Source: an uncultured Bacteroidales bacterium | GTDB lineage: Bacteria > Bacteroidota > Bacteroidia > Bacteroidales > P3 | DNA: 64,000 nt | Assembly: GCA_900317125.1 (NCBI GenBank) | Contig: ONFR01000002.1 | Location: 1-64,000, forward strand | Direction: 5' to 3' | In this document: in pieces, positions 19,319 to 64,000 of the stretch | How positions within the stretch are numbered: position 1 is the stretch's first letter | How the letters are laid out: each line of letters opens with the position of its first letter | Program-made: the position numbers and the translations under genes | The notes under the pieces: generated by a model | Told to the model about the DNA's origin: nothing | Database searches by the model: none | What the model saw: the letters and a program-made list of their open reading frames with translations, nothing else

Positions 19319-19502
19319 CTCCACGTATCTCACGTATCACAAGTATTATCACTACAAGTGATTTTTATACGTGTAATACGCGAGATACGTGGAGTTCTTG
19401 TGAGATATGTGGAGACCTTGCAAGGTAGTGAATTTTATACGTGTAATACGCGAGATACGTGGAGATTCTGTGAGATACGTGGAGACCTCGCGAGGTGGTG
19501 AA
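19319..19502. repeat. Two 70-bp tandem repeats preceded by an inverted copy of their core
   Basis: Two 70-bp units (19363-19432 and 19433-19502) carry TTTTATACGTGTAATACG and GAGATACGTGGAG and are nearly identical. Upstream, CTCCACGTATCTCAC (19319-19333) is the exact reverse complement of GTGAGATACGTGGAG at 19470-19484, so the transcript could fold into long alternative hairpins. The repeats lie in the 258-bp gap between convergent genes, just before a terminator. No coding frame. Confidence 0.75.
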
Positions 19503-21657: not shown

Positions 21658-22140
21658 TTATTTTTGTTTCACAATCTTTGCTGAATGGCTGCCGCAACGC
21701 AGGATATAGAGTCCTTCTGGCAGCTGGCTGATGTCCATTGTGGTGCCGTCGGTGACCGTCAGCTCCCTGAGCTTCACACCGGTTACGTTGTAGAGCACAG
21801 CCTGCTGGGGAGTATCGCCGATACCGCTGAGGGTGACCTTGTCGCGTGCAGGATTGGGGGTTAGCTGAAGGTCGGAGGCGTCAATCTCGTTGATGCCGAT
21901 GATGGGGTGAGAGAAGGTGATGACACGGATGTCGTCAAGGGCATAAGTGCCCCAGTTGCGAAAGCCAATTTGGCAGTACATGGAGTCGTCTTGGAAGAAA
22001 TAGAGGCCATAGCCCCAATCCATGTAGTCGGATACGATTTCGTTGCCTTCCAAGTCATACACGTTTGTACGGACTTGTGCATTGGCTGCCCCGCCAAAGA
22101 GCAGGAGCAGCAGGATGAGGTGTTTTAATGTGTTTTTCAT
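21658..22140 (-). CDS. Small T9SS cargo protein
   Basis: A 160-aa protein with a signal peptide (HLILLLLLFGGAANAQ). About 70 residues follow (NVYDLEGNEIVSDYMDWGYG, LDDIRVITFSHP) that resemble the linker after a jelly-roll domain. A complete type-A T9SS sorting domain closes the protein (LTPNPARDKVTLSG, LYNVTGVKL, LPEGLYILRCG, AKIVKQK). It is very short for a T9SS substrate: little more than a sorting tail plus one mini-domain. It starts 16 nt after the peptidase gene and ends 13 nt before the beta-helix gene. Function unknown. Confidence 0.85.
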   Translation of the reverse strand: MKNTLKHLILLLLLFGGAANAQVRTNVYDLEGNEIVSDYMDWGYGLYFFQDDSMYCQIGFRNWGTYALDDIRVITFSHPIIGINEIDASDLQLTPNPARDKVTLSGIGDTPQQAVLYNVTGVKLRELTVTDGTTMDISQLPEGLYILRCGSHSAKIVKQK

Positions 22141-22156
22141 AATTGTTGGATATTAT

Positions 22157-59146: not shown

Positions 59147-59887
59147 TTAAATTGTCTTGTCTTTTTCTTCCTTGGTAACAAGAGTGATAACTCCATCTTT
59201 TATGCTGTTAATGAATTGTTGTCTGCGGTTGTCTGCGAAATCAATAATCATCTCGTTGATAGAGGTGGCCGTTTTCACTTCTGCCAAGTTGTCCACGAAA
59301 ATGATTTCCTCAGCCAGATTGTCGACAGGGATGATTTCCTCGGCCAACTGGCAGTAGATGATGGTGGGTTCTGTGTATGCTGGTTCGATGGCTTCATTTG
59401 CGGGGACGGTGGTCTCAGTGTCGGTCTCTTGTGGTTGCACGTTTAGTATACTCTTGTTTGCGCGTGGTAAGGAGGGATTCATCCTTTGGATGCGCCGATT
59501 GGCAGAAGCAGGGGAGGAGATGGGGGCACTTTGGTCTGTTGTAGGAGCGTCGGATGTCTTCGGCTGTATCTGAATAGGTTTGTTCTCAGCCACCAATGAT
59601 TCATTGTCTGTTCCTACAGTGGTTGACGTAGTTGTCCATATTCCATATCCCAACGCAAATACAATACATGCTGCTGCAGCCCAACGCCACAGGGGTACAA
59701 TGCGGCGGGTTTTGCGGGCAGGAGGCTCAGCGGTGACCACAAGGGTGGGGTCGTAGTAGGTCTCCATCTCCTCGCGAATGTCGGGATGTTCCAGCAGGAA
59801 CCGCTCCACTTCGGTGCGTGTGGTGCTGTCCAGTTCGCCTTCTTGATAGAGGTACAGGTAGCCCTCGTAATTGTCCATGTTAATCAT
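59147..59887 (-). CDS. Putative anti-sigma factor with C-terminal internal repeat
   Basis: 246 aa, starting in the ATGA overlap with the sigma gene (59884-59887); MDNYEGYL at the fourth codon is an alternative start. The first ~60 residues are an acidic helical domain (YLYLYQEGELDSTTRTEVERFLLEHPDIREEME), a typical sigma-binding region. One transmembrane helix (~66-84, VPLWRWAAAACIVFALGYGIW) follows. A periplasmic tail has a 10-residue unit LAEEIIPVDN repeated twice (181-190 and 191-200) and a third partial LAEVKTA. No zinc motif. It would hold the ECF sigma factor at the membrane. Confidence 0.8.
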   Translation of the reverse strand: MINMDNYEGYLYLYQEGELDSTTRTEVERFLLEHPDIREEMETYYDPTLVVTAEPPARKTRRIVPLWRWAAAACIVFALGYGIWTTTSTTVGTDNESLVAENKPIQIQPKTSDAPTTDQSAPISSPASANRRIQRMNPSLPRANKSILNVQPQETDTETTVPANEAIEPAYTEPTIIYCQLAEEIIPVDNLAEEIIFVDNLAEVKTATSINEMIIDFADNRRQQFINSIKDGVITLVTKEEKDKTI

Positions 59888-60528: not shown

Positions 60529-61158
60529 TTATTGTTTGATAACACGTTTGATGGCATTGCCGTTGTGCAAGGTTACGTGGAGGGTGTAGAGACCTGTGGG
60601 CAGGTGTTGAATGTTGATAACATTGCTGTCATGGAAGGTGGCGACGATGCGTCCGCTTTGGTCATAGACTTCAACCATATCCACTTCGGATGGCGAAATG
60701 GTGATTTTGCCGGTGGTTGGGTTGGGGGAGAGAGTGATATGGCCAAGGTTGTCAGCTGTGCAGATGCCTACCTCGGTGATGGTTAGCTGCAATACGATGA
60801 TGCTGTCGCATCCGGCCTCTGTCTGCCCCTCAAAGAGGTACTCGCCGCTTTCGTTGTAGGTGTTGCCCTGCCATGTGTAGCTGCCCGCGGCGGAGTCGAC
60901 AATTGTGTCGTGGGTACTATAGTTGATGGTGAGGAGGAGGGTGACAGTGCTGTCGCAGCCTAGAGAGTTGATAGATGTTATAGAATCAATAGAGGAGGCA
61001 GTATAGATAGAATCGTGCCAAGTGTAGCTGTCGCAGGCAGTGACGGTCTCAGTAGATGTAGTGCTGTAGTTGATGGTGAGGTGGAGGGTGACAGTACTGT
61101 CGCAGCCTTGAGAGTTGATAGATGTTATAGAGTCGATAGAGGAGGCAGTATAGATAGA
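60529..61158 (-). pseudogene. Severed C-terminal part of a T9SS protein (repeat domains and sorting tail)
   Basis: This piece continues the gene at 61125-64000 in a different frame. It holds the last domains, CDSYTWHDSIYT-xxx-GCDSTVTLLLTI repeats and GSYTWQGNTYNESGEYLFEGQTEAGCDSIIVLQLTI. The type-A T9SS tail is complete (LSPNPTTGKITISPSE, VYDQSGRIVATF, LPTGLYTLHVTL, KRVIKQ). There is no own start codon or promoter; a frame from 61203 begins in out-of-frame repeat DNA and has no signal peptide. The break is a 20-bp tandem duplication (61139-61178). Removing one copy restores one continuous frame. Either a natural frameshift or an assembly error. Confidence 0.82.
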
Positions 61159-61207
61159 GAGGAGGCAGTATAGATAGAATCGTGCCAAGTGTAGCTGTCG
61201 CATGCGG
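60921..61207. repeat. 147-bp direct coding repeat carrying a 20-bp tandem duplication
   Basis: AGTTGATGGTGAGG begins at 60921 and again at 61068 (period 147 bp, 49 codons), and the two copies are nearly identical. Each encodes one TACDSYTWHDSIYTASS...GCDSTVTLxLTI module. In the right copy, the 20 bp at 61139-61158 are repeated exactly at 61159-61178, shifting the frame by two bases relative to the other copy. Confidence 0.85.
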
Positions 61208-64000
61208 TATCAACGAGTATGATGTTGTCACTATTATGGATGGTGAGATTCAGCAACAGGATACTGTCACAGTCTGCTATCTGTGATAGCGTGTCAGTAT
61301 AAATGCCGGATAAGGTTAACAGTGTGTCGCGCCACATATATCTGTCGCACGCTGTGACCGCTATGCTGTCCTTAACCGTGTTACAGTTGGAGTGTACCCA
61401 ATGCTCCTCACGTCCTCCGGCACCAAAGTGTCCGTTTGCGTTGCGGATGTTGTCAGCCATCACCTTTAGTACATAGAGGCCAAACGCGTTGGTCTTATTT
61501 GCGATATGAACGGAATAGGTTGTGTCGTCCACACGACTGACGGTGACAGTGCTGTCCATCAACTCCACCCCATTGTTGCATTTCAGCGACATGTCGGCAT
61601 ATGTAAACGAGGTGTCGATGATGGGTTGGTTGAAACGCACTCGGAACGAGTCAAGTGTACTGCCAATAGCATGTATCGGGATGTCGAGTATTTCCTCCAC
61701 TTTCAGCATATCCTCTTTCAGTCGGAAGGTGACATTGTACGATGTCGGCCTTACTACCGTGAGAGTATCCACAATGTGCAAGCGGTTGTTGTATTCGGGA
61801 TCGAGACCAGCCACCAGATCAACAAAGGTCAGCCAGATATTGTCGAGCGGTATGCTGACGCTGTCGTCGCGCATGCAAGACACGATGTCGTACTTGCCTT
61901 GTCCCGGGTCGTAGGTTGAGGCATACTGCCAGCCGATGGTGTCGGGGAAGAGGGTGACACGCACCACAGTGTCAACCACCCGCACCAACTCGACGGTGCT
62001 GTCTGGCAGAGTCACTGTGTCCATATTCTCAACATAATGGTCAAACAAAGCGGAGTCTGTCCCAGCGACACTCACACTACGTCCCGAAGAGAAGTAAATG
62101 GTGTCGGGTCTGTTAAGGCCACCGTCGTTTGTAAGGAAGTCATGGATCGTGTCAGAGCCGGGTCTGTATTCCATCACCGTCTTGACGAGGCTGTGGGCAC
62201 GTGCCGAAACCAGGCTCAAGTCCCTGTCGTTTATCGAACTATTATGAATCACGTTAATATTGTCAACTGTGATAGTACCAAGTAGCGAACTCTTGAGCAG
62301 ATACTCAAGTGTGTGGGTCTCATCAGGTAGCACCGTACCTAGTACAATATCGCTCAACGGCTTTGAGCAAAATGCGCCGTCCATCATGGAATTCAGCATG
62401 GCGAGGTCGACCACCAGTCCCTGCCTGTTGTCCACAACTTGGGGAGAAAGAGAGGAGATACGCACATTCTCAGCACTGCCCGCTCCATTGTTCAGCACAC
62501 GCAACCCAATCGTGGCAGGGATGCTGGGCTCGATAACTGGGATGGTAAGCGGGTCGTCTGCAATGATGTTGTGCGTCACAAAGTAATCTATCTGTAGGTG
62601 TGGTGACGGATGTACGGTAAGTTTGACGGGTTTCAGTTCATCTGACATCTGAGCAGCCGTGAAGGGGTCAGTATAGGCTATTGAACCACCAAAAAGATAA
62701 GGTACTGGTGCCATAGGAGCAGCCGACATCAGCGGCACATACCTTACGGTAATAGTGCCAGTGCTGTTGGGAGCCAATGTGCCGAGAGAATCCACATTAT
62801 GTCTTCCGATGATTTGGATATCAAACATGTTTGAGCAGTCATGCCCCAAGGTGTCGCTCACGCCGAAGAGTAGCGACAGGTCACGCAATGCCACTGAGTC
62901 GTGAGGATTGTTGATGACCAGACGTCCCTCAAACGCCTCTCGAGTCATGGCTATCGACTGGTTGAACTGTAGCGTCACCCCGGCACATACCGATTTTTTC
63001 TTGGGGTAGCTCACCATCGAGTCTAATGTGGCCGTATACAATTCTTCTATCGACCAGTAGCCCTCATCCATGGCGGTCAGCTCCATCCGTTCCAATGCTC
63101 CGGTGGTGTTGGTGTCGAGATAGAAGAAGTCGAGTGAGTAGCCTGTCGGCACCATCGAAGGATTCAACCAGCCACGCTCATAGTACATCTTTGTCAAACA
63201 CCATCTATTTATATAACGCTTCAAGATTACTGTGTCAATTTCGATAATTGTGGTGTCATAGCTCTCCTTCAGTTGCTGAACGGTCGGGATAACCGTAGTT
63301 ACCAACCGGCGAGTAATAGAATACAACACCTCTGGATGTTCTCTAAATACCACCATAGAGTCGTCTACTAACTTGTAACGGATAACCTTGAGGGTGTCGT
63401 AGTATTTTTTTGCCAATCTGATGTTGTAGACATTGACATTGGTGTCGGAGCTGAAATTTACATTATATCCCCAAGGTATTTCTACAGAATCATTGGGACA
63501 TTCGGTTAAGGCACCGAAAAGGTCGTCAACGCAGAATGCTAATGGCTCAGCATAGGGGTTGCCGTCTCCTAACAATTGCATCAGTGCAGTCAGTGCGGCT
63601 TCTCCGTAGGCGGTGTTGAACACCGACGAGCTTCCGTCATTGCCGTCTCCCGTACTAGAAGTATTTCCATTGTCTGTCGACTGTTGTCCATAGTAGGCAG
63701 CCTGGTTCAGTAAGCGGATGGGGGTTTGTGATAATTGATTCGCGGTTCGTGCTATGGCCGCTGGGTCGCCACCATCTACTGCCGACTTCCACTGGTTGCT
63801 TTGGTCACGGTAGTTGTCGGCATTGTTCTGAGCACTGCCCTCGCTGTCGGTAGAATTATTTGTGTTGTATAAATGGTTGCTGCAGTCGAGAGCCGTCACT
63901 GTGGCTTTATACCAACAGGGCTGGCATTCCCAATCTGTTTCATTTTTCGGAAGCTTTGGCCAGTTGATGTGTGGCAAGGAATTGGGAGGAATAGTGTTAA
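61125..64000 (-). CDS. Large secreted protein, N-terminus beyond window edge, frame broken before its T9SS tail
   Basis: The frame is open to the last base of the window (a codon at 63977 is TTG inside an open frame, so not a start). The visible ~958 codons stop at 61125. Early part: SNHLYNTNNSTDSEGSAQNNADNYRDQS, VDGGDPAAIARTANQLSQ. Then beta-rich domains follow with many D-x-D-T and FxxxDS patterns (PHDSVALRDLSLLFGVSDTLG, APNSTGTITVRYVP, RVLNNGAGSAENVRISS), the look of a large Bacteroidota adhesin- or Ig-like scaffold. It ends with CDRYMWRDTLLTLSGIYTDTL and CDSYTWHDSIYTASS, then runs out of frame. No catalytic motif seen. Without its tail it could not be sorted by T9SS. Confidence 0.85.
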   Translation of the reverse strand, partial: NTIPPNSLPHINWPKLPKNETDWECQPCWYKATVTALDCSNHLYNTNNSTDSEGSAQNNADNYRDQSNQWKSAVDGGDPAAIARTANQLSQTPIRLLNQAAYYGQQSTDNGNTSSTGDGNDGSSSVFNTAYGEAALTALMQLLGDGNPYAEPLAFCVDDLFGALTECPNDSVEIPWGYNVNFSSDTNVNVYNIRLAKKYYDTLKVIRYKLVDDSMVVFREHPEVLYSITRRLVTTVIPTVQQLKESYDTTIIEIDTVILKRYINRWCLTKMYYERGWLNPSMVPTGYSLDFFYLDTNTTGALERMELTAMDEGYWSIEELYTATLDSMVSYPKKKSVCAGVTLQFNQSIAMTREAFEGRLVINNPHDSVALRDLSLLFGVSDTLGHDCSNMFDIQIIGRHNVDSLGTLAPNSTGTITVRYVPLMSAAPMAPVPYLFGGSIAYTDPFTAAQMSDELKPVKLTVHPSPHLQIDYFVTHNIIADDPLTIPVIEPSIPATIGLRVLNNGAGSAENVRISSLSPQVVDNRQGLVVDLAMLNSMMDGAFCSKPLSDIVLGTVLPDETHTLEYLLKSSLLGTITVDNINVIHNSSINDRDLSLVSARAHSLVKTVMEYRPGSDTIHDFLTNDGGLNRPDTIYFSSGRSVSVAGTDSALFDHYVENMDTVTLPDSTVELVRVVDTVVRVTLFPDTIGWQYASTYDPGQGKYDIVSCMRDDSVSIPLDNIWLTFVDLVAGLDPEYNNRLHIVDTLTVVRPTSYNVTFRLKEDMLKVEEILDIPIHAIGSTLDSFRVRFNQPIIDTSFTYADMSLKCNNGVELMDSTVTVSRVDDTTYSVHIANKTNAFGLYVLKVMADNIRNANGHFGAGGREEHWVHSNCNTVKDSIAVTACDRYMWRDTLLTLSGIYTDTLSQIADCDSILLLNLTIHNSDNIILVDTACDSYTWHDSIYTASSLSILPPLSTL

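Follow-up and report, generated by a model that had tools for sequence, protein, structure and literature searches.

A 20-bp tandem duplication separating a giant BspA-like protein from its T9SS sorting tail in an uncultured Bacteroidales genome: probably a recent, revertible frameshift rather than a dedicated secretion switch

The stretch of DNA analysed here (the window, 64,000 nucleotides at the start of a contig from an uncultured Bacteroidales bacterium) contains a large gene whose T9SS sorting tail lies behind a 20-bp tandem duplication, and the question is what this duplication does. According to the original prediction, a slippage-prone unit just ahead of the secretion signal could switch the protein between exported and retained forms, while a recent mutation or an assembly error were named as alternatives. 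The predicted repeat is there: the 20-bp unit is directly followed by a second, exact copy, found by TRF (100% match) and by our script (Table 1), and the maximal run of period 20 covers 61138-61178 (41 nt, 2.05 copies, 100% match). By arithmetic (4^-21 per position), about 1.5e-8 such runs are expected by chance in 64 kb. Since 20 cannot be divided by 3, the second copy shifts the frame, and this frameshift is the reason that the long ORF meets its stop at 61125. The gene is thus split in the way that had been described, as open reading frames and profile searches both place the last repeats and the T9SS tail in another frame. When the script reads one unit instead of two, a single frame runs to the T9SS tail, and since this is also the arrangement of the relatives, the view that removing one copy gives one continuous gene holds as well.

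Table 1. Coordinates of the features around the duplication (positions in the window).
Feature	Position	Strand	Basis
Long ORF, 3' part (957 codons in the window)	61125-64000	-	ORF; PF13306, PF07705
Rest of the gene in the shifted frame (two 49-aa repeats, another spacer repeat, T9SS tail)	60529-61203	-	ORF, profiles
T9SS type A C-terminal sorting domain (Por_Secre_tail)	60538-60726	-	PF18962, TIGR04183
147-bp (49-aa) repeat, copy A, 98-nt segment	60914-61011	-	Repeat search, spacing 147
147-bp repeat, copy B, 98-nt segment, 20-bp duplication at its edge	61061-61158	-	Repeat search
20-bp unit, copy 1	61139-61158	-	TRF (100% match), script
20-bp unit, copy 2, exact tandem copy	61159-61178	-	TRF, script

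The long ORF as a whole occupies 61125-71192 of the contig (3,355 aa), with its start 7 kb past the window. It matches LRR_5 (PF13306) with 608 bits in 10 stretches, as a BspA-type LRR protein does, and the profile search also found a CARDB-like domain (PF07705); its N-terminus (MTTMKKRLLTYALLLLAGIGIAYGQ) looks, by eye, like a Sec signal peptide. The remainder in the other frame has 224 aa from an ATG at 61203, the frame being open from 61209, and its tail is recognised by both PF18962 (6.3e-11, 42.8 bits, and 45.3 bits in the genome search; curated cut-off 27) and TIGR04183 (3.4e-12, 46.2 bits; curated cut-off 23). For the T9SS machinery, the genome encodes SprA (TIGR04189, 2,364 bits) along with three C25 peptidases, and more than 60 further sorting domains score above the cut-off. 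Because the LRR body, an N-terminus that resembles a Sec signal peptide, the T9SS tail and the machinery occur together, the undivided gene would encode a giant BspA-like T9SS surface protein. In its BspA-type LRR body, its sorting domain and the machinery in the genome it is like known T9SS type A cargo (RgpB, and BspA of Tannerella forsythia); unlike such cargo, the long product of the assembled allele is without the sorting domain, which is out of frame with the exported body. RgpB that lacks its T9SS tail is not exported and is left in the periplasm (PMC5445135), and by this example the tail-less product here would likewise be kept from export.

Two further T9SS genes of this genome may be mentioned. 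On the same contig (C26, about 109-124 kb, L086), another repeat protein, intact and of 4,580 aa, has a T9SS tail and contains dozens of related 49-50-aa repeats. At C11 2149-2680 (L100), a 104-aa T9SS tail lies in a different frame than a short upstream remnant; this looks like a second T9SS gene, decayed and with no tandem duplication, and it was therefore rejected as a similar case. Systematic frame breaks before T9SS tails were rejected too, since most of the short-tail ORFs inspected (window 21658-22152, C14, C8) encode small proteins that are complete and begin with an N-terminus of their own; the one at C7 was ambiguous.

Comparison with relatives gives the direction of the change. In the nearest relative (G021) the gene is syntenic, with flanks 91-96% identical, and its orthologue is a single unbroken ORF (4,171 aa) in which the 20-bp unit occurs once; it has three of the 49-aa repeats, versus two here. 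Five further orthologues (G018, G036, G140/L088, G143 and G098) also read through to the tail, so that the sorting domain is in frame in each of these relatives, which show the full layout of T9SS type A cargo. A search that allowed up to 3 mismatches found the duplication tract in none of 119 other genomes of the genus. As the orthologues are intact and the tract is absent from these 119 genomes, the duplication is derived in the genome studied. A contig search for other strains returned only two more distant species.

The 147-bp repeats around the duplication are direct repeats, as had been stated, but their description as nearly identical was too strong: the 98-nt segments of copies A and B that were compared have 93% identity, with exact shared runs of 23 and 45 nt, and the longest exact runs between adjacent repeats are 45-47 nt. 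If the second unit were an artefact of assembly or strain mixture, the true sequence would have one unit, and the other would stem from the joining of contigs or from merged reads of strains or repeats. This would suit a genome that resembles a short-read metagenome bin (47 contigs, 16S rRNA gene not found) and a lesion that lies inside a repeat array, starting 2 nt within the edge of a 47-nt exact match from repeat to repeat. It would also suit the homologous array of G062, another member of the genus, where two 2-base N gaps (L107, 11822-11823 and 11980-11981) are each flanked by the same 9-bp duplicate (ATAACATCT) and the frame is broken, which is an assembly artefact; since these gaps have duplicated ends, assembly trouble at this array does occur. 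However, in 11 of the 16 relationships between contig ends of the genome studied, the ends overlap or coincide over exactly 99 nt, and the 346 kb examined contain no N; both point to un-scaffolded de Bruijn contigs (k of about 99, as inferred from these contig ends). Exact repeats in the array reach 47 nt at most, so it leaves no ambiguity at such a k, and the junction is expected in a contig of this kind only if the reads carried it. A false join between repeats would alter the length by 147 bp and not by 20.

Two more specific causes of this type were considered and rejected, namely an unmerged k-1 overlap, because the contig-end overlaps are 99 nt and not 20, and a general excess of tandem duplications in the assembly. 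In the 346 kb of the genome examined, the run at 61138-61178 is the only exact tandem duplication with a period of at least 18 bp that breaks a frame and is not of low complexity, and the 15-kb array at C26 (109-124 kb) likewise contains none of this kind. Assembly error, which had been offered as one alternative, is made less probable by the 99-nt end overlaps and the absence of N, and we regard it as unlikely, although it keeps more weight than the other rival readings discussed below.

The second alternative, a recent mutation, is the best fit, and the codons past the lesion are the reason. By a crude three-way parsimony, the changes on the own branch of this genome number 14 synonymous and 9 nonsynonymous after the lesion (168 codons, small counts) and, by the same crude method, 60 synonymous and 41 nonsynonymous before it (325 codons). 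In pairwise comparison, dN/dS past the lesion lies at 0.11-0.18, and about 200 codons there contain no stop codon. As judged from these substitutions, the part after the lesion gives no sign of relaxed constraint. The lack of decay implies that the lesion is recent, or that the intact form is still common, i.e., that the locus is polymorphic.

A reading in which no function is lost at all also has to be weighed, either because a programmed frameshift joins the two frames or because they are expressed as two separate proteins. The frames overlap by about 85 nt, so that ribosomes shifting by -1 within the overlap would read into the tail, and a hydrophobic stretch comes after the ATG of the tail ORF (61203). 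On the other hand, that hydrophobic stretch is out-of-frame repeat DNA, the relatives have no need of such a device, and in the overlap the script found neither a slippery heptamer nor a homopolymer of at least 4. On these last grounds a programmed ribosomal frameshift was ruled against, and the reading as a whole is, in our estimate, extremely improbable.

The switch that was originally proposed would be a case of phase-variable secretion, in which gain and loss of a 20-bp unit toggles the frame of the tail, so that exported and retained forms are both made in one population and are selected as bet-hedging. A switch of this type could look as the locus does, with a large surface protein that carries an exact tandem unit directly ahead of its export signal; the frames are intact on either side of the lesion, and the codons after it have not decayed. 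There is also a precedent in pneumococcus, where spontaneous and reversible tandem duplications within capsule genes are described as giving phase variation (Waite 2001, 2003, cited in PMC4243769). Set against this are the two copies only at the tract, its occurrence in 0 of 119 other genomes of the genus, the single unit in the nearest orthologue, a single assembled sequence that represents one state, and the lack of a second locus of this kind in the 346 kb. Among the open literature searched, no paper linked T9SS and phase variation either to frameshift or to tandem repeats with slipped-strand mispairing. The exported/retained switch thus finds no positive evidence here, and we consider it very unlikely as an explanation of the locus. 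The fuller claim, that the T9SS tail is taken away and restored as one 20-bp unit is gained and lost, that cells exporting the protein and cells retaining it in the periplasm occur in one population, and that the phase switch would act on secretion and not on expression, is slightly less probable still. If both states coexisted, secretion itself would be toggled by a slippage-prone unit ahead of a T9SS tail.

Spontaneous tandem duplications that disrupt the frame of the pneumococcal genes cap3A, cap8E and tts have been reported as reversible (Waite 2001, 2003, cited in PMC4243769 and PMC4022640). As far as these citing papers portray them, the present locus is like the capsule genes, having one short tandem duplication inside the ORF of a surface structure, a broken frame, an intact remainder and a reversion that is possible in principle. 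It is unlike them in that the affected part is the tail of a T9SS cargo and not a capsule enzyme, and in that one metagenomic consensus stands here against the reversibility reported there. Like the present locus, simple-sequence contingency loci have an exact tandem unit within coding sequence, and the number of copies would set the reading frame. They differ in having many short units, compared with a 20-bp unit present twice, and in a tract that is kept in relatives; here the tract is not conserved, and one copy number is known. Since the precedent makes any such duplication reversible, the duplication would act like a rarely reverting off-allele and not like a demonstrated switch.

We therefore return to the recent frameshift, which we hold, with some confidence, to be the probable explanation: a slippage-type mutation that created a non-exported allele in the sampled population, revertible in principle and not a dedicated switch. 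The 20-bp duplication would have arisen spontaneously, by slipped-strand mispairing or a similar replication error, within a 49-aa repeat. By breaking the frame, it detaches the T9SS sorting tail from the giant BspA-like surface protein, and the product of this allele, presumably exported by Sec, would be unable to cross the outer membrane and would be retained in the periplasm or degraded. The duplication is probably both recent and present in the sequenced population, and loss of one copy could restore the frame, at a low rate. Understood as a recent frameshift, the locus amounts to an ordinary allele, from a single metagenomic genome, whose product is no longer exported.

The setting of the locus is useful in its own right, and this context may matter more than the lesion: a giant surface protein has a very divergent body between shared ends. 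The gene body, about 8.7 kb (C26, about 70977-62300), is mostly 55-70% identical between this genome and the nearest relative, versus about 80-97% for the flanks and for the two gene ends (approximately the first 70 codons, and several hundred codons at the 3' end). For the 3' end, the same pattern is present in G062. Since identity drops only there, the body appears to have been exchanged or diversified between the shared ends, with sharp boundaries. A divergent body of this kind would be expected of a surface antigen that evolves under diversifying selection.

Two other tandem repeats in the window should be recorded. An exact 10-bp tandem pair (GTTGTCTGCG) is found at 59218-59237, close to the 3' end of an ORF on the minus strand; as the nearest relative has the pair at the same place, it is conserved and not new. 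At 19357-19502 there is a tandem array made up of about 2.1 copies of a 70-bp unit, with a 20-bp repeat inside.
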